From a virus, in the IMG/VR virus record IMGVR_UViG_3300003324_000599, positions 1 to 20,521 of that record: DNA of 20,521 nucleotides; one strand, given 5' to 3'. Position numbers and translations under genes: made by a program. The notes beneath the pieces are model-generated. The model ran no database searches. It was not told where the DNA came from and was given only the letters and a program-made list of their open reading frames with translations. The first letter of the stretch is position 1. Every line of letters starts with the position of its first letter. Positions 3,417 through 16,690 of the stretch are shown piece after piece.

Positions 3417-5291
3417 TCACTCTTCCTCGACGGTCGACTTCCAGTCCTCGTTGACCTGTTCGAAGATCTCCGGGCCGAAGATCAGCTCGCCGCGGTAAGG
3501 CTCTACCGTCGATAGATCGAAGCCGTCCGGCGTCTCGTAGGTGAGCGTGATGTGCGGCGCGTAGTCGTCGTAATCCGAGCTCGCGCCCTTCGCGATCATG
3601 TCCTGATGTCGCCAGCTCAACGACGACGAGTTGAACAGCAGCACGGTCGCCTCTTTCAGGCTCCCGAACTCGTCGAGCATACGCGGTCCGCCAGGCGGAA
3701 CGCGGAGCTTGCCGTCGTTGTCCTGGTCCCACGGCTGACCCATGGCCATCCAGTCGACTGGCGTTCGCGAGTAAACGACCGTGACGTGCACCTCGTCGGC
3801 CGGTAGCGTCGTCGTGAAGCCCTGTCCCTTGGCCCACGCGATCACGTCGTCGGCATTGAGGAGCTTGCGGCTGACGTACAGCGTCCGCGGCGCAGCGTCG
3901 GTGAGCAGGCTAGCGGCCTGGTCCGCGGTGACCGTGCCCCGCTTCTCCATGGCCGAAAGCCGCTGCTCGAGCGTCTGCAGGTCCGCCTCGTTCTGGTCCG
4001 GCTCCGGATTGGCCTCTGCCTCTTCGAACGCGGCCTCGGAACCTGGCCACCGGCCGCTTTCGATGATGCGGTTCTTCGCCAGCGCGGAAAGCGCCTGGTC
4101 CGGCAAGAGGCCCGTATCGGAGTAGTTCTTGACCGTTTGCGACGCCTGGAACTCGATCGCCGCCGCATCCTTCTCGTCCATCACGCTCAATGGCGCGAAC
4201 TCGTAGTAGATGTCGGACGGCCGCGAGCCGAGCGCGGAGGGGATCAGCACCTCGTCGATCCGGTCGAGCGCCGGCGCCAGCAGCTCGTTCTGACGAGCCC
4301 GGATCATCGACAGGTAATCGCGTTCTTCTCCGTCTCCGTTCGATTGAAGGCCCTTGGGGCTGACGCCTAGGAGACGGGTGAGCGGGATATCGGCCGCGCC
4401 GGCCACGACGTTGAGGAACGCGAAGAGGATGTCGGGAATACCGGGCCAAGAGACCTCGCGCGTGTCCCATTCTTCCGCCCCGTCGAGGATCTTCGCCCGC
4501 CACGTCGACTGGCCAAGCTTCACGAGGCCAAGGCGGTCGAGCAGCTTCTTCTCGTAGTCCGCCGAGCCGACGTTCTGCATCAGGTCCGGGATCTTGTAGA
4601 CGTCGAGCTTCGCCTCATCGATCAGGGCCGCGAAGCCGCCCTGCGCGGTGTCGGCATTCTTCACCGCCTCGCCGATCGACTGCATGATCGGATCGCCCCA
4701 AAACCATGAGCCGGATTGGTAGTAGGCGCCCTCGGGCGCACGCTGGCCGACGAATGCGATGACGCGAGAAGGATGGAGTTTCACCTGCTGCCCATTGCCG
4801 CCCGTCAGGGTGAAGTAGTCGGGCTGCATGAACCACGGATCGGCCGGATCCAAGCGCGGCTGACCCTCGCCCAGCTGCTGGCGCGAGAGGACGTGGACGA
4901 ACTTGAGACCGTTGGCCTTCACGAGCCCGACGTTGAGCGGCTGCTCGGTGTTCGTGTCGCCGGTGCCGAGGATCAGCGCGCCGCCGCCGTAGAGGCGAGC
5001 CAGGATCAGGGCGCGCTGGCATTTGTAGGCGAGCTGCAGCCGCTTCTCTTCGGCCTCGACCTTCTCGATGTCGGCGGATTCGGCCTGCCAGTCGCGCCAC
5101 TCGCGCGTCATGTCGAACGGCGGGACGTCGACGATCTTCCGGACGAGCCAACTGGTCCGGTAGGCGGCTTCCGCCTCCTGGCCGGACATGACTTCGAACA
5201 GGTAGAAGGCGGCGGCCCGCTTGTCGGCCGTCGTGCCCATGCCGGACATGACGTTCACCAGACGATCGAAGAAGTGCGTCACCATGCCCAT
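3417..5291 (-). CDS. Portal protein (DUF1073 type) with C-terminal Acb1-like 2H phosphodiesterase domain
   Basis: The 624-aa product has two parts. Residues about 20-440 match the DUF1073 portal family (ARLYGGGALILG, HPSRVIAF, ADIPLTRLLGVSPKGLQSNG), which forms the DNA channel of the head. Residues about 465-624 form a 2H phosphoesterase-like domain with two His-x-Thr motifs, HVT at 502-504 and HIT at 580-582, the catalytic pairs of this superfamily. The wording around them (TLYVSRKLLNA, SRTPVDWM, YRGELIFGPEIFE) is like Acb1, the phage enzyme that destroys cyclic-nucleotide signals of CBASS defence. I recall that databases now name DUF1073 after Acb1. An acidic linker (EEAEANPEPDQNEADLQ) joins the two. 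A stop codon just upstream in frame fixes the start at ATG 5291 or a little later; no clear ribosome site is seen. Confidence 0.92.
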   Translation of the reverse strand: MGMVTHFFDRLVNVMSGMGTTADKRAAAFYLFEVMSGQEAEAAYRTSWLVRKIVDVPPFDMTREWRDWQAESADIEKVEAEEKRLQLAYKCQRALILARLYGGGALILGTGDTNTEQPLNVGLVKANGLKFVHVLSRQQLGEGQPRLDPADPWFMQPDYFTLTGGNGQQVKLHPSRVIAFVGQRAPEGAYYQSGSWFWGDPIMQSIGEAVKNADTAQGGFAALIDEAKLDVYKIPDLMQNVGSADYEKKLLDRLGLVKLGQSTWRAKILDGAEEWDTREVSWPGIPDILFAFLNVVAGAADIPLTRLLGVSPKGLQSNGDGEERDYLSMIRARQNELLAPALDRIDEVLIPSALGSRPSDIYYEFAPLSVMDEKDAAAIEFQASQTVKNYSDTGLLPDQALSALAKNRIIESGRWPGSEAAFEEAEANPEPDQNEADLQTLEQRLSAMEKRGTVTADQAASLLTDAAPRTLYVSRKLLNADDVIAWAKGQGFTTTLPADEVHVTVVYSRTPVDWMAMGQPWDQDNDGKLRVPPGGPRMLDEFGSLKEATVLLFNSSSLSWRHQDMIAKGASSDYDDYAPHITLTYETPDGFDLSTVEPYRGELIFGPEIFEQVNEDWKSTVEEE

Positions 5292-9615: not shown

Positions 9616-9993
9616 TCATTTGCCACCTCGGAACGGCGCGCCGAGCGGCATTTCGAAATAGTCTAGCTCATAGTCTCCTTCGTCTCCGATGCGCTCCATC
9701 GCGCGATCGAACAGCACGCGTGGCGACGTTCCGCTGCAGCCGGCCAGGACGTTGACGAGGAAGCGAAGGTCGCCGTCCAGGCGGAACCATTCTCCATGAG
9801 AGCGCAGGTCCGAGAACGTCCGGTGAAGCTGTCGCTCTTCGTTCGCCGTGCCTTCGAAATAGGCCAACAACTTCAGTGGTGCCGGGCAACCGGTCTGAAG
9901 CTCCCTGAGCCTTCGATCCGGGTGCGAATCGCTGAAGCCAATCTTCACAACGCCGAGCTTCTCCGCCTCGATGAAGTAGACGAAGCCGCTCAT
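9616..9993 (-). CDS. T5orf172 / GIY-YIG-like protein, 125 aa
   Basis: Starts at ATG 9993, overlapping the TGA of the helicase gene (ATGA). The first 85 residues carry the T5orf172 (Mug113) form of the GIY-YIG fold: FVYFIEAEKLGVVKIGFS, then RRLRELQTGCP, then EERQLHRTFSDLR and HGEWFRL. Arg28 or Arg30, His57 and the Glu residues near 52-53 are candidate active-site positions. The C-terminal 40 residues are acidic and not recognised. Members of this family are presumed nucleases of phage and mobile elements, but few have been tested. It follows the replication genes, so a role in DNA processing is likely. Confidence 0.8.
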   Translation of the reverse strand: MSGFVYFIEAEKLGVVKIGFSDSHPDRRLRELQTGCPAPLKLLAYFEGTANEERQLHRTFSDLRSHGEWFRLDGDLRFLVNVLAGCSGTSPRVLFDRAMERIGDEGDYELDYFEMPLGAPFRGGK

Positions 9994-11288
9994 TGGTTGA
10001 GGTCCGCCCATCGTCCGACCTCGATGAACTCGCGGATTTCGCGGCGCTCGTCCTGTTTCTCGACGGTGACGAGAGCGCCGTTGTCGAGCCAGGTCTTGAT
10101 CATCTCGTCGATGCGCTGGCGGACGCCCTGCTTGTCGAGGTTAAGGTCGAGCACGAACGCGACCATCTTCCCGACCCACGCATTCGACTTCGAATGCTTC
10201 CGGGCTTTCATCGGATTTTCGTCGATGATCCGCTGGATGTTGTAGAGCTGGCGAGTCGTGACGCCTCCGAAGACGTCGGGCGGTTGCCAGCGCTGAACGG
10301 CTCCGATGCTGTCCTCCGGTCCGGTCTCATCGCCGTTCCCAAGGCCGATGCTGAGGAACTGATACCAATCCGGCCGCAGAGCGGCGGCGGCCTTGTTGTT
10401 CTTGTCGTCATAGACCTTGAAAAAGGTCTTCCGATCACACTCCGGGATTTGCAGGCGAAGGGCCTCGTCCGGGCTCATCCGCTGCAGCACGAGGCACGAG
10501 CGAGCGGCGTTGATCATTGCTCCGGCGCCGCGCGCGTCGTTGGCGGTGAACTCCGCGGCGGTCGTCTTGCGGATGTGGTGAGCGAGGCTGATCGCGCAGT
10601 CGGTGGCGCGGGCGACCGCAAGCCATTCCTTGGCGATGGCGTCGATCGCCTGGTTGCTGTTCTCGTCGACCGCGTGGCTCGAGACGAACGGATCGACCGC
10701 GAGATGGTCGATCTTCTTCGCCTTCAGTTCTTCGATCAGTGCTTCGATGACCGGGCGCTGGATCTTGAATCCGCGGAAGTCGGCCTCGACCGCGATCTTC
10801 AGGCCCGACGAGCCGATGCTGTCAGCGCCGTTGATGTAGAGCCGGCCCTCGAGGTCGGCCGGGCTGAGGTTCCACAGCTTCAGGAAGGCGTGGACGGTCT
10901 TCTCGACCTCTTCGAACTCATCCTCGAGGTTCCACAGCCAGCAGGTATGCGGGCCGTTCCACGAGCGATGTCCGAAGAAGTCGCGGCCGGTCGCCATGCA
11001 GATTGCACGGCCGACCTGGAGCGTCGTCTTGCCTGCCGCGCCGGGCGCGATGATCGCCGAGATTTGCCGGCGACGGAGCTCGTAGCCGTAGAGCCAGTTG
11101 CGGCGCGGGATCGTGTTCGGATCGCGCCACGTGAACGGCTGCGCGCTGAAGCTGCGCCTTTCCGATTCCGGCTCTCCGAGCGGCGGAGCGAAATCAGGGC
11201 CGACATAGCGGGCGCTGGCAAGCGCCTCGCGCACGGCCTCGCCGCCAAAGTCGCGATCGATGTCTTCGAAGTCGCGGGCCACGCTCAC
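9990..11288 (-). CDS. RepA-like RecA-fold hexameric helicase / AAA ATPase
   Basis: The 432-aa protein has a Walker A motif APGAAGKT at 81-88, a Walker B strand IDHLAVDP at 193-200 (Asp199) and AHHIRKT at 236-242, which resembles motif 3 of RepA/KaiC-like ATPases. This family includes plasmid RSF1010 RepA-type replicative helicases. The C-terminal third has a winged-helix-like end (LDNGALVTVEKQDERREIRE). It starts at GTG 11288, overlapping the TGA of the primase gene (GTGA), so primase and helicase are translated together. Together they would form the phage primosome. Confidence 0.88.
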   Translation of the reverse strand: MSVARDFEDIDRDFGGEAVREALASARYVGPDFAPPLGEPESERRSFSAQPFTWRDPNTIPRRNWLYGYELRRRQISAIIAPGAAGKTTLQVGRAICMATGRDFFGHRSWNGPHTCWLWNLEDEFEEVEKTVHAFLKLWNLSPADLEGRLYINGADSIGSSGLKIAVEADFRGFKIQRPVIEALIEELKAKKIDHLAVDPFVSSHAVDENSNQAIDAIAKEWLAVARATDCAISLAHHIRKTTAAEFTANDARGAGAMINAARSCLVLQRMSPDEALRLQIPECDRKTFFKVYDDKNNKAAAALRPDWYQFLSIGLGNGDETGPEDSIGAVQRWQPPDVFGGVTTRQLYNIQRIIDENPMKARKHSKSNAWVGKMVAFVLDLNLDKQGVRQRIDEMIKTWLDNGALVTVEKQDERREIREFIEVGRWADLNQ

Positions 11289-12254: not shown

Positions 12255-15218
12255 TCACGCCGCAGCCTCCATTTCCAGCATCGCGAACAGCGACGGCGTT
12301 TCGCGATCAGCGGCGGCCTCGCGGCAATAATGCACCGCGTCGCGCCACGAGACTTCGTTCAGCTCGACGCCGAAGCCGCGGCGACCAAGCTTCAGGGCCC
12401 TCATCGGCACGGTGCCGAGGCCGGCGAACGGATCGAACACGAGGTCGCCGGGATTGGAGTAGAGCCGGATCGTCCGGTCGACGATGTCGAACTGCAGCGG
12501 ACAGATATGCGCCTCGACGCGACGACGGCTCTGCTCGCTGTTCAAGGTCCGCATCCGCGCGACGTCGGTCCACACGTCGTCGCGAAGGCATCCCGGCTTC
12601 AAAACCGAAAAGGTCTTCGGCAACGCCTGGCGCTCGGCGAGGCCTTCGCCGATGGCGACGTGCGCCTCGTGGTCGTAGACGTCCTGGACCGACCATGCCG
12701 GGAACAGCTTTGCCAGCGCATCGGGCGGCATCAGCGCCAACTCGTCGGCCGTGAGCGGTCGATCGCCTGACGAGCGCCACAAGGCGTCAGCGTCGATTTG
12801 CCACCGCGCGAGGCTGTACTCCTCGGCATCCTTGGTGACCGGCTCGTCGGCATAGCCGTTCGACCGGTCAGTCGGCAGCTTGAAGAAGAGGAGCAGGAAC
12901 TCCGGCGAGCCGCAGCCCATCTTTGAGCTGTCTTTGCGCAGCTCCTTGTAGGTCAGGCGGTACGTCTGGTTGTTCTCGCGCACGACGTCGGTGGCGATGA
13001 ACCGAAGTCCCATGTAGCCGAAGCCGTGGCGGCGGAAGTGCGCGATCGTGTCGGCGTGGAACGGCTCGACCGTCGGCCGCGTCATGCCGGTCACCGAGGC
13101 GAACTGGATACGGTCCTTGACGTGGATCGCGGCGATCCGTCCGGGCTTCAGGATCCGCAGCAGCTCCGGCGTCAGGAAATCCATCTGCGCGAAGAAGTGC
13201 GCGTGATCGTCGGTGTGGCCGAAGTCGTTGTAGCTCTCGGAATATTCGTAATGGTTGCCGAACGGCACGGACGTGACGATGAGGTCGACCGAGTTGTCCG
13301 GCATGCGCCGGACCTCATCGACGCAATCGTTACGCACCATCGACCAGGCGCCGTCGCTTCCCGACGCTTCCTCGCGCTCGCAGCCGATGGTGCGTTTCAG
13401 GCTTTCCGCCGCGGCATCGTGGTTGAGGCCGAACTCGCGGATGATCTCGCTCATGCGCGCCATCAGCTCGTCGTGGCGTTGCCACTTCTGCTGGAGCGAG
13501 CGGAGGACTTCGGTCTCCGTCTCCGAATAGATAACGTCCACGACGCACGGCCGCTCTTGGCCGAAGCGGTGAATACGGTGGATGCTCTGGATGAAGTCCT
13601 GAAACTTGAACCCGATTCCAGCGAAGATCATCCGATTGCAGCGCTGAAGGTTGACGCCCGCGCCGTACATTGTCGGCTTGCTGATGAAGGCGGCCGTTTC
13701 GCCGCGCCGCCATTCTTCGAGCGTCAGCTCGCGCTTATCGAGCGACTGCGTGCCCGTAAGCGATGAGTAGGTCAGCCCTTCGGCGCTGACCGCTCTTTCG
13801 CAGGCCTTCTGCTCGTCGTTGAGGTCGCACCAGATGATGCACTGCTCAGATAGCGAATCGCCGCCCTCATGAGCTTCACATTCTCCTGGAATTGGCCGAT
13901 CGCCAGATTGCAGTGCTGGCAGAGAAGCCCTCGTACCTTCCCGGTCTGGTGGCAGTGATCGACTGCGAGCCTCTTCTTCGCTCGGCACGGCTTGCGGCAG
14001 ATCGCACAGGCGCTGCCCTGCTTCAGCAACAGGGCTTGGTAGTCTTCGAGGGTGATCCCGTACGACTTCAGATGGCTTTTCAGCTTTTCCAGCGGACGAG
14101 TCCGGCTGCGAGCATTCGCGTACCGCCGCGCCCTTTCCTGCTGCTGAGGACTGGCGGCATACAGCTCCCGCTTCCGCCGTCGAGCGGCCTCCTTCTGCTC
14201 CGGCGTCTTCTCCGGACGTTTGTATGTCTTGAGATACTCCCGCATGTAGGCCTTGCGGTCGAAGGAGCTGCGCGACTTTTGCAATCCTGACATCAATGCT
14301 CTTCCTCTTCGCTCGGCTGGCGTCCACGACGCCGATCGCAGCGTCGGCAATCAGACGACGCTGCCCATTGGATTCAGTGCCAGCGTCGGACAGGTCCGCC
14401 TCGACCATGTGATACCTGACTTCGAACGGCGGCAGGTCGTAGCCTTCATCCGAGAAACCGAGGTCGGACGGCTTCTGCAGGAACACGCCCCACGAGTTGA
14501 GCCACAGCCAGAACTCGGCTTCCTTGTGCGGGTAGAGCGTGAGGTCGTTGGCCTTCTCGCTGTTGCGCTGGAAAAAGCGGGTGAGCGCCTGGCCGGTGTC
14601 CATGACGCCGAGGAAGCCGGCATAGTGGATCAGCTCCTTGTACCGGTTCGGCGAAGGCGTGGCCGTGGCGACGTGCCGGTAGGGCACGGCGTCGAACAGC
14701 GGCAGGAACTCCTGGTAGGTCTTCGAGCCGTAGGACCGCAGCACCGAGGCCTCGTCGAGCGACGCCCAGCCGAACCGGCCGACGTCGATCTTGCCCTCGC
14801 GCACGCTCTCGTAGTTGGTGAGGAAGATCGGCGGCTCGACGTCGTTGTCGGGGTCGAGCGCGTCGATCTCGGCGTCGGATTTGACGAACGCGACCTTGAT
14901 GTCGAGCAGTGCGGCGTCGATCATGAACTCGCGCCGGACGCCGAGCGGAAGGACGATCAGCCCTAGGCAGCCGGTCTTCGTTGTAATCAGCCGTCCGATC
15001 TCCAGCTGCATCATCGTCTTCTGAAGGCCGAAGCTCGCGAAGATGCCGCGCCGCCCGCCCTGAACCGCCCATCGGACGATATGGCGGACGTGCTCCTTCA
15101 TCGGACGGCCGTCGGTCAGGTGCGACTGGACCTCGTCGAGCTCGCACGGCAGGCCGACGCTCGCCGGCGATGCGATCTTCGCCTCGAGGAAGGCGCGGTA
15201 TGGATCGGGCGCGTTCAA
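12255..15218 (-). CDS. SNF2-like helicase fused to beta-class DNA methyltransferase, interrupted by an HNH insertion
   Basis: The 987-codon frame has three parts. Residues 1 to about 319 are the first helicase lobe: a Walker A-like FGLQKT at 63-68 (Gln where Gly is usual), DEAS at 155-158 and ATATPSPN at 184-191. Residues about 457-600 are the second lobe, with IHRIHRFGQ (motif VI) near 546-554. Residues about 625-987 are a methyltransferase with TSVPF at 649-653 as the catalytic motif and DPFAGLG at 929-935 as the SAM site; that order marks the beta class, acting on adenine N6 or cytosine N4. Between the lobes, residues about 310-456 resemble no helicase and are the out-of-frame reading of an HNH gene. 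The start is TTG 15218, overlapping the upstream TGA, with GGAG 6 nt upstream. Whether one long protein is made is unknown. Confidence 0.85.
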   Translation of the reverse strand: MNAPDPYRAFLEAKIASPASVGLPCELDEVQSHLTDGRPMKEHVRHIVRWAVQGGRRGIFASFGLQKTMMQLEIGRLITTKTGCLGLIVLPLGVRREFMIDAALLDIKVAFVKSDAEIDALDPDNDVEPPIFLTNYESVREGKIDVGRFGWASLDEASVLRSYGSKTYQEFLPLFDAVPYRHVATATPSPNRYKELIHYAGFLGVMDTGQALTRFFQRNSEKANDLTLYPHKEAEFWLWLNSWGVFLQKPSDLGFSDEGYDLPPFEVRYHMVEADLSDAGTESNGQRRLIADAAIGVVDASRAKRKSIDVRIAKVAQLLRPQGLHAGVSQDIQTSGEDAGAEGGRSTAEAGAVCRQSSAAGKGAAVRECSQPDSSAGKAEKPSEVVRDHPRRLPSPVAEAGQRLCDLPQAVPSEEEARSRSLPPDREGTRASLPALQSGDRPIPGECEAHEGGDSLSEQCIIWCDLNDEQKACERAVSAEGLTYSSLTGTQSLDKRELTLEEWRRGETAAFISKPTMYGAGVNLQRCNRMIFAGIGFKFQDFIQSIHRIHRFGQERPCVVDVIYSETETEVLRSLQQKWQRHDELMARMSEIIREFGLNHDAAAESLKRTIGCEREEASGSDGAWSMVRNDCVDEVRRMPDNSVDLIVTSVPFGNHYEYSESYNDFGHTDDHAHFFAQMDFLTPELLRILKPGRIAAIHVKDRIQFASVTGMTRPTVEPFHADTIAHFRRHGFGYMGLRFIATDVVRENNQTYRLTYKELRKDSSKMGCGSPEFLLLFFKLPTDRSNGYADEPVTKDAEEYSLARWQIDADALWRSSGDRPLTADELALMPPDALAKLFPAWSVQDVYDHEAHVAIGEGLAERQALPKTFSVLKPGCLRDDVWTDVARMRTLNSEQSRRRVEAHICPLQFDIVDRTIRLYSNPGDLVFDPFAGLGTVPMRALKLGRRGFGVELNEVSWRDAVHYCREAAADRETPSLFAMLEMEAAA
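13772..14293 (-). CDS. HNH endonuclease (phage endonuclease VII type) nested inside the helicase gene
   Basis: This ORF is offset one base from the helicase frame. It has its own ATG at 14293, with AGAGGAAGAG at about 14299-14308 as ribosome site. The product carries the endonuclease VII form of the HNH fold: CAIC at 96-99, VDHCH at 111-115 and LLCQHCN at 123-129, then a short helix MRAAIRYL at 142-149. A basic N-terminal region (MREYLKTYKRPEKTPEQKE) precedes it. After RYL the ORF only continues in the wrong frame of the helicase, so residues after about 150 are probably not part of the ancestral domain. The first 11 residues also overlap helicase sequence, so the inserted module seems to be about 14260 to 13852. 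A homing endonuclease that invaded the gene is the simplest reading. Confidence 0.85.
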   Translation of the reverse strand: MSGLQKSRSSFDRKAYMREYLKTYKRPEKTPEQKEAARRRKRELYAASPQQQERARRYANARSRTRPLEKLKSHLKSYGITLEDYQALLLKQGSACAICRKPCRAKKRLAVDHCHQTGKVRGLLCQHCNLAIGQFQENVKLMRAAIRYLSSASSGATSTTSRRPAKERSAPKG

Positions 15219-15568: not shown

Positions 15569-15738
15569 GACGCTTGCGGTCCCAGTTCTTTGCGGATGCG
15601 CGAGAACGGGCTGTTCGCGTAATCTCGGTTGAGGCCGAGGCGCTCAGCGGCGGTCGAAACGTCGCCGCACTCCGCCAATTCCTCGGCGAAGCGGTCGATC
15701 ACACGCTCGCCGCGCGGCTTTCGCCTCCCCCACGCCAT
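15565..15738 (-). CDS. Small HTH-like protein, 57 aa
   Basis: ATG 15738 overlaps the TGA of the VRR-NUC gene by one base and its own stop overlaps the next ATG (ATGA), so both ends are coupled. The product begins MAWGRRKPRGERVIDRFAEE and continues GDVSTAAERLGLNRDYAN and SRIRKELGPQAS. The pattern of a helix, a turn at GLNRD and a basic helix suggests a small DNA-binding protein. Too short for many gene finders. Confidence 0.65.
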   Translation of the reverse strand: MAWGRRKPRGERVIDRFAEELAECGDVSTAAERLGLNRDYANSPFSRIRKELGPQAS

Positions 15739-16124
15739 CACGCAGCGACCTTCGCTTCGGTGATGACTGTGGCGCGCAGGATGACACCCCAGGCGCGAAG
15801 GCAGCGCTCGACCTCTTCCACCGATCGAACGACGGCGACCTTTGCGCCGGCGGCCACCATTCTGCCTTGTGTAAGTTTTTGCGCTTCAGTGAGCGATCCG
15901 GACTTGCTCTTAACCTCGAAGCCGTAAAGCCGGCCGTCGATTAGACAGAGTAGATCGGGAATGCCGGGAACGACGCCCAACCCCCTGAGTAGCGCAGTTT
16001 CCCATTTTGCACGGGTGCCGCGCTGGTTGGGTGTGTGCCATACGAGCGCATCGGCGGGCAGAGAGATGGCCAGGAACTGCAGAATGCTTTTCTGCGCCGC
16101 CTCTTCTGGATGAGCGCGCCGCAT
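15738..16124 (-). CDS. VRR-NUC domain nuclease, 128 aa
   Basis: The PD-(D/E)XK nuclease core of VRR-NUC is visible as GIPDLL at 54-59 (Asp57), then LYGFEVKSKSG at 67-77 (Glu70 and Lys72), then LTEAQ. An N-terminal EEAAQKSILQFL helix precedes it. Stand-alone VRR-NUC proteins of phage are structure-selective nucleases that cut branched or junction DNA, related to FAN1 in eukaryotes. A role in resolving replication or recombination intermediates would fit. ATG 16124 is coupled (TGATG) to the HNH gene before it. Confidence 0.88.
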   Translation of the reverse strand: MRRAHPEEAAQKSILQFLAISLPADALVWHTPNQRGTRAKWETALLRGLGVVPGIPDLLCLIDGRLYGFEVKSKSGSLTEAQKLTQGRMVAAGAKVAVVRSVEEVERCLRAWGVILRATVITEAKVAA

Positions 16125-16690
16125 CAGCTGGCAACCTTCGATCTGCGCTGGCGGCCCAGCTCAAGCCCGCCAAGGTCCAAGCGACCCTTTTGAAGAGCGT
16201 CCCGGACGTTCTCTTCGTTCGTTCCCCACCAAAGGTGGTCTGGATTAGTGCACGGCGGATTGTCGCATTTGTGGCACGCGAAATGCATTGGTGACGGGCG
16301 CGGCCGACCGTGCAGTTCAAGCGAAACGTGCGTCGCCTGGACAGGCCTTTTGTCCACCGACAGCTTGGGATAGCCGTTTGCATCACAATGTCCGGACCAG
16401 GACCAACAGCCATTCGGACCGTTTTTTTCGACTTTCTCGAAAAATCGTTCGGCAACTGGCCGCCGCTGGCTCGCTGAGCGCTTCGCCGAAGCCGCTGCCG
16501 TGTGTGTAGCGGCAATCCTGCGACGACGGACTTCATCAGGAGAAAGACGGAAACCGGCGCGCTTCGCGGCGAGTCGGGCGCCAGTATCGGAAAGCCCAAA
16601 CGGGGCATCGGCTTCTTCGAAGGATTTGCCGGATGCGACGGACGCCGCGATTGCCTCGTTTCGCGCAGCTCTCGCCGCGCGAGCACTCAC
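16124..16690 (-). CDS. HNH endonuclease with HTH-like N-terminus, 188 aa
   Basis: The HNH core reads GCWSWSGHCDANGYP, then ATHVSLELHG (His121), then FACHKCDNPPCTNPDHLWWG (Cys139, Cys142, Cys147, His152), then NEENVRDALQKG. This is the pattern of phage HNH_3-type endonucleases. The N-terminal 75 residues are Ala/Arg-rich (NEAIAASVASGKSFEEAD, then GLSDTGARLAAKRAG), with an HTH-like element that probably targets DNA. It starts at GTG 16690, overlapping the previous TGA (GTGA). A free-standing homing-type or branch-processing enzyme are both possible. Confidence 0.85.
   Translation of the reverse strand: MSARAARAARNEAIAASVASGKSFEEADAPFGLSDTGARLAAKRAGFRLSPDEVRRRRIAATHTAAASAKRSASQRRPVAERFFEKVEKNGPNGCWSWSGHCDANGYPKLSVDKRPVQATHVSLELHGRPRPSPMHFACHKCDNPPCTNPDHLWWGTNEENVRDALQKGRLDLGGLELGRQRRSKVAS

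Follow-up and report, generated by a model that had tools for sequence, protein, structure and literature searches.

The window analysed here is the whole of a 20,521-base IMG/VR virus record (IMGVR_UViG_3300003324_000599; 64% GC), which carries on its minus strand a gene for an SNF2/SF2-type helicase fused to an N6/N4 DNA methyltransferase, within which an Endonuclease VII-type HNH nuclease gene is nested out of frame. The host gene (12255..15218) encodes 987 amino acids (aa) including the insert and is open throughout; its product matches PHROG 16 ('DNA helicase') and contains the Pfam domains Helicase_C (residues 457-553) and N6_N4_Mtase (644-955). Helicase lobe 1 (residues 1-319, 14262..15218, minus) is 77-78% identical to the uninserted relatives L012 and L013, and is followed by an inserted segment of 408 nt between the lobes (residues 320-455, 13854..14261, minus) and then by lobe 2 and the methyltransferase domain (residues 456-987, 12255..13853, minus). 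The nested HNH gene (13772..14293, minus; 173 aa from its ATG) lies in the +1 frame relative to the helicase and overruns the insert at both ends, and a Shine-Dalgarno-like AGAGGA (14303..14308, minus) is located 9 nt before its ATG, inside lobe-1 codons. The original prediction, made from this DNA alone, had described a complete HNH open reading frame (ORF) with its own start and ribosome site, one base out of frame, in a helicase gene that stays open through the insert and then resumes, and both parts of that description held.

The nested ORF was recognised as a member of Pfam PF02945 (Endonuclease_7) with an E value of 1.4e-25. Its catalytic and zinc signature, C96-x2-C99 ... D112-H113-x-H115 ... 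C125-x2-C128-N129 (13907..14008, minus), was intact in 11 of 11 aligned nested copies, in which the four cysteines, the DHxH motif (DHSH in L017) and the asparagine of the CN motif were invariant. A profile of the HNHs matched T4 Endonuclease VII and Hpy99I in the PDB, and T4 Endonuclease VII was also the best match in a fold search with the structure model of the window HNH, with modest scores; the model was confident to about residue 150 and weak after that point, where host lobe-2 codons are read. On its predicted zinc-binding and active-site residues, the nested HNH is assigned to the Endonuclease VII family. Within the insert, identity among copies was 40% in the HNH frame versus 27% in the helicase frame, and change was greatest at the third HNH codon position, indicating that the HNH is the frame under protein-level conservation. 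The reverse pattern, a segment conserved in the helicase frame but not as an HNH, had been proposed as evidence against nesting; it was looked for and was not found.

The edges of the insert were established by alignment with uninserted relatives, as had been suggested beforehand. In 223 such relatives, a conserved lobe-1 arginine (R311 in the window) and a conserved lobe-2 tryptophan (W463) were separated by 17-35 residues, mostly 19 or 22, versus 152 residues in the window and 152-204 across the inserted members. The window insert therefore comprises some 130-133 codons, with the 13854-14261 segment including some native linker, and as this linker measures 3-9 residues the edges are uncertain by about 20 nt. 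The HNH ORF reaches about 32 nt into lobe-1 codons and about 82 nt into lobe-2 codons, so that host codons supply both of its ends: at the 5' end the AGAGGA motif (anti-Shine-Dalgarno free energy of -5.8 kcal/mol), and at the 3' end a C-terminal tail and TGA stop codon (13772..13853, minus), both taken out of frame from lobe 2, the tail being modelled with low confidence. In the AlphaFold model of the host protein, the confidence score (predicted local distance difference test) was mostly about 90 or more in the lobes and below 50 for residues 327-455, and in the host frame the insert is predicted to encode a disordered loop between the lobes.

The arrangement was not confined to the window. 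Relatives were collected from IMG/VR and from bacterial genomes, and a second scan added further alleles. The first 80 IMG/VR relatives contained four more distinct alleles in which an HNH occupied the site and phase seen in the window, and in total ten distinct alleles were found at this interlobe position, referred to as site 1 (the window, L017, L030, L032, L088, L176, L181, L182, L193 and L356; L177, L033 and L357 are duplicates of L017, L032 and L356, respectively). Five of the ten occur in isolate bacterial genomes, so that assembly error cannot explain the arrangement: these are prophages of Gellertiella hungarica DSM 29853 (L177), Variovorax paradoxus ISL-3 (L176), Variovorax paradoxus ISL-79 (L182), Acidovorax A1169 (L181) and Dactylosporangium sucinum (L193). 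In all ten, to which the AT-rich locus L092 described below does not belong, the insert length was a multiple of three and the helicase ORF was uninterrupted, at 987-1383 aa. Carriers nevertheless made up just 13 of the 236 full-length family members aligned (the ten distinct alleles plus duplicates), joined insert flanks could be aligned to the empty loci L302 and L354, and no more site-1 carriers were found among the matches listed when annotated phage records were queried with the nested HNH or with the whole inserted protein. With nine further alleles open in both frames, relatives with an empty site and a predicted loop at residues 327-455, the earlier proposal that the insertion is tolerated between the lobes, with two proteins coded by one stretch of DNA that would both be made, gained considerable support.

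Translation signals were likewise shared among the copies. A start codon (ATG, GTG or TTG) was present at or close to the 5' insert edge in nearly every site-1 copy, that of the window being situated further upstream than the others, and most were preceded at normal spacing by a GGAG-type motif in lobe-1 codons, the codons typically being ATG/GTG-GAG-ATC (Met/Val-Glu-Ile). The motif was found in 11 of 13 inserted loci (duplicates included) versus 13 of 98 empty loci with the same type of lobe-2 block, the WC type described below. The HNH stop codon lay 16-79 nt beyond the insert, within lobe-2 codons, in 10 of 10 alleles. Host codons supply the putative Shine-Dalgarno sequence in most copies, often the start codon and always the stop codon.

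Whether chance could account for the open helicase frame was assessed by permuting synonymous codons within each HNH, with protein and codon usage kept. For the window HNH the helicase frame was open in 4.1% of draws, in agreement with the 'few per cent' estimated previously. Across the ten site-1 alleles, however, no helicase-frame stops were observed versus 32.9 expected (means of 1.4-6.2 per copy), which places the set far below chance, beyond what the window alone would indicate, and the third frame contained 2-10 stops in every copy. Probabilities for individual copies ranged from 0.17 to 0.00015, with a product of about 4e-20 if the copies are taken as independent, a figure overstated to the extent that they share ancestry (mean amino acid identity of 40%). 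As a control, 48 free-standing Endonuclease VII genes, mostly actinobacterial and with a G+C content at third codon positions of at least 0.66, were measured across the same 150 codons; only one was open, versus 10 of 10 nested alleles (Fisher p = 1.1e-9 for 9/9 versus 1/48, the tenth allele, also open, having been found later). The sole open control, L257, raised the suspicion of another nested copy, but inspection showed a free-standing gene. These codon comparisons, far beyond chance, show that selection maintains the open host frame.

Evidence of movement was obtained from trees of the two proteins. On the helicase tree the ten carriers required 9 changes versus a mean of 9.8 for shuffled labels, whereas on the HNH tree the same ten required 4 versus a shuffled mean of 9.7. 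L176 and L182 are sister helicases, 90% identical, yet their HNHs are distant; the L182 HNH is nearest to the HNH of L181, a locus with a helicase remote from that of L182. A further trace was seen directly 3' of the insert, where a WCDLNDEQ-type lobe-2 block (about residues 456-530, 13629..13853, minus), a putative co-conversion tract, stands in place of the WHDLEDER-type block found in the nearest empty relatives. All carriers were of the WCDLN type, the nearest empty relative was of the WHDLEDER type for 9 of 10, and on a tree built without the block the independent pairs favoured the swap by 6.9 to 0 (median p 0.016). Identity between L176 and the empty locus L354 was 99 and 96% before the site, 36-43% in the next 75 residues and then 68, 64 and 83%; between the window and L012 it was 90 and 85% before the site, then 29-48% and then 68-82%. 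One-sided co-conversion during homing would leave such a swapped block of about 75 codons just 3' of the insert. Taken together, the trees and the block indicate that the element moves between alleles, and its putative status as a homing endonuclease gene, with cleavage of a target site, gains indirect support from the scattered carriers and the swapped 3' block.

Nested nucleases were also found elsewhere in the same helicase-methyltransferase family. In L096 and L365, an AT-rich helicase (about 30% GC) with the empty relative L366, an Endonuclease VII HNH is inserted at model position ~380 in phase +2; in L096 about 190 host codons lack a stop (shuffle P = 2.5-3.5e-4) and the third frame contains 32 stops, so that the same need for an open host frame is met there by a different phase. 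At another lobe-1 position, a second insertion site (model ~266), L183 (= L363, L405), L069/L067 and Mycobacterium phage Pacc40 (L485) carry an HNH of the NCxWAT type in phase +2 with the host frame open; as the shuffle P values of L183 and L069 were 0.54 and 1.0, these inserts were not used as evidence of selection. The AT-rich locus L092 has an Endonuclease VII HNH (1379-1974) at site 1 and was first read as a nested copy, a reading rejected when its helicase frame proved to contain many stops. The helicase gene there is divided into separate ORFs: lobe 1 terminates at an ATGA that overlaps the HNH region, and an ATG preceded by GAGGA would allow lobe 2 to restart.

Other peculiarities of the family and of the nuclease were noted in passing. 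In-frame inserts of about 300-350 aa, probably inteins, are present in L001, L002, L190, L193 and Pacc40 (model position ~790) and in L251 and L341 (~87), L193 holding both such an insert and a nested HNH. Several RefSeq phage records (NC_026593, NC_051716, NC_028946, NC_011287 and others) label the helicase-methyltransferase 'anaerobic ribonucleoside reductase large subunit', apparently an annotation error that has propagated. Outside the family, a terminase large subunit gene in a Hyphomicrobiales genome (L297:464-2734; G1083, C1 near 218461) contains an intein (PF14890, E = 2e-15) with an Endonuclease VII HNH (PF02945, E = 1e-16) out of frame in its middle, the intein and terminase frame being open.

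The explanation considered probable is that the nested ORF is a mobile Endonuclease VII-family HNH homing gene which spares its host helicase-methyltransferase by dual coding. According to this scheme, the HNH gene was inserted between the helicase lobes one base out of frame, at a length that preserved the host frame. As the coding of the HNH gene is poor in stops in the alternate frame, ribosomes would be able to read through and produce a host protein with a disordered interlobe loop of about 130 residues, while the nuclease would be initiated internally, from a Shine-Dalgarno sequence and start codon at the 5' insert edge that derive partly from lobe-1 codons, and would end at an out-of-frame stop within lobe-2 codons. 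Spread would occur by cutting of empty alleles, with repair copying the HNH plus a tract of about 75 codons of donor lobe 2. The sequences themselves show the nesting, its recurrence, the open host frame, the conservation of the HNH, the discordance of the trees and the swapped 3' block; from these we infer translation of both products, helicase activity in the presence of the loop, site-specific cleavage and homing.

A more detailed version is put forward tentatively, as a conjecture somewhat less likely to be right than wrong. The moving unit may be a dual-coding cassette, consisting of the Endonuclease VII ORF and an adjoining lobe-2 module with its own out-of-frame stop, which lands beside a host Shine-Dalgarno sequence; host readability would then reflect selected HNH codon choice, and the phase would be set by base composition (+1 in GC-rich and +2 in AT-rich genes), with gene splitting where no phase is open. 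If so, one homing event would deliver a translatable nuclease without harm to the host protein.

Several observations weigh against the homing-gene explanation. The shuffle probabilities treat related copies as independent, though their codons are widely diverged, and an open frame is by itself unsurprising for several copies (0.17 for L176, 0.13 for L181). The HNH tree comprises 99 columns with few supported forks and is poorly resolved. Ordinary recombination of an HNH-bearing WC-type module could give both the patchy distribution and the discordant trees without nuclease-driven homing. Finally, the split helicase of L092 means that the element does not strictly require an open host frame.

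This recombination route is central to the foremost alternative, that the HNH has been domesticated as an accessory nuclease of the helicase-methyltransferase, serving in junction resolution or a restriction-like role, nested for co-expression and spread with the lobe-2 module. Endonuclease VII resolves branched DNA in T4, the host here is a DNA helicase and methylase, the insert always accompanies the WC-type block, and the catalytic residues are intact, all of which would suit such a role. However, the few carriers are scattered on the tree, and the unrelated HNH families at other sites of the gene, together with the Endonuclease VII HNH in a terminase intein, are hard to explain as helicase accessories; a domesticated nuclease was therefore judged unlikely. 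It was also considered that the insert might be removed before the helicase acts, by a self-splicing intron, translational bypass or an intein, as group I introns and inteins carry HNH nucleases of a similar kind and the bypass in T4 gene 60 is a precedent. Group I and group II introns were rejected, as no Rfam intron family was found in the window region at E <= 5 or in the ten occupied loci at the gathering threshold, and an intein was rejected as a Pfam scan of the 987-aa ORF revealed no Hint/intein splicing domain and the outer-frame segment is poorly conserved and predicted to be disordered. Furthermore, removal would need neither an open host frame nor an insert length that is a multiple of three, yet 10 of 10 copies have both, and the probability of any such mechanism was considered very small.

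Ribosomal frameshifting from lobe 1 would yield a lobe 1-HNH fusion and no free nuclease, and the HNH frame is indeed open upstream into lobe 1 in the window, L030, L032, L176 and L356. In L017, L088, L181, L182 and L193, however, the HNH frame is blocked by a stop a short distance upstream of the junction, which leaves internal initiation as the simple route, and starts with a Shine-Dalgarno sequence at the insert edge are found in nearly all copies; frameshifting thus appears highly improbable. A chance open frame, an assembly artefact or a decaying insertion might have been entertained for the window alone, given its shuffle probability of 4%, but the same architecture recurs in five isolate genomes and several independent contigs, and neither frame nor any active-site residue is disrupted. 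Chance was rejected on this recurrence and on the 48 free-standing controls, and the whole group of explanations retains almost no credibility. The mobile homing gene with dual coding consequently remained the preferred explanation.

Elsewhere on the contig, further nuclease genes were noted on the minus strand at 16124-16690 (HNH), 15738-16124 (weak VRR-NUC match) and 9616-10011 (T5orf172/MUG113 protein). A single minus-strand ORF at 3417-5291 fuses a phage portal protein (PF06381) with an Acb1 anti-CBASS domain (PF23474).

Selfish nuclease genes usually spare the host gene by means of a self-splicing intron, an intein or landing between genes, and dual coding would represent a further route by which such a nuclease can keep the host gene readable. 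As empty and occupied alleles are up to about 90% identical upstream of the site, homing is directly testable. The case also carries a warning for annotation, in that the longer host ORF masks such nucleases. By family, signature (CxxC ... DHxH ... CxxCN) and closest solved structure, the nuclease resembles T4 Endonuclease VII (gp49), although gp49 is encoded by a free-standing junction resolvase gene whereas its relative in the window is nested inside another gene. In inteins with nested homing endonuclease domains, too, the host frame runs open across the insert; the window insert, by contrast, has no splicing domain, and its nuclease is encoded outside the host frame. In phage Aeh1, the homing endonuclease gene mobE splits nrdA into two proteins. 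This parallel, drawn in the original prediction, stands insofar as a homing endonuclease gene lies within a conserved phage gene; the host is divided there, however, while that of the window stays one ORF, and the split counterpart at site 1 is instead the AT-rich L092. As the closest parallel mobE is displaced by the out-of-frame HNH genes of phage methylases (PMC11855218), one of which is in the same family.

Such 'hidden' insertions with an open host frame are described in ShiLan gp65 and Pacc40 gp60 (Arsenault, Gosselin and Gogarten 2025, PMC11855218). The window element shows the traits of this type, being absent from close relatives, encoding an HNH in another frame of the same strand with the host frame open, lacking a recognisable intron or intein, being disjunctly distributed and giving discordant trees. 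Mycobacterium phage ShiLan gp65 (PMC9957025, PMC11855218) is similar in its out-of-frame HNH, open host frame, disjunct distribution and lack of intron or intein features; its host methylase, however, fails to match the present helicase-methyltransferase model, and its HNH (HVHHVNGVKSDNRPANL) matches neither the Endonuclease VII nor the NCxWAT model. The authors of PMC11855218 found no ribosome site for the ShiLan HNH, whereas that of the window lies in host codons, which offers an answer to the question left there. Mycobacterium phage Pacc40 gp60 is closer, as it belongs to the same helicase-methyltransferase family (end-to-end model match) and has an out-of-frame HNH, an open host frame and a patchy distribution; it differs in that its insert precedes the EGYDLP motif in lobe 1 (model ~266) rather than occupying the interlobe linker (~334), and in its phase (+2) and HNH family (NCxWAT type in the homologous L183 and L069 inserts). 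The term endonuclease VII is absent from the main text of PMC11855218, and the parts of the paper covered describe neither the interlobe site nor proteobacterial carriers of it. The general architecture was thus already published in 2025, and what is new is the interlobe site, the Endonuclease VII family and the proteobacterial carriers: where the earlier cases were a few mycobacteriophages with nuclease translation unexplained, the type now extends to actinobacteria and to prophages of alpha- and betaproteobacteria, and involves a nuclease family unrelated to the earlier ones.

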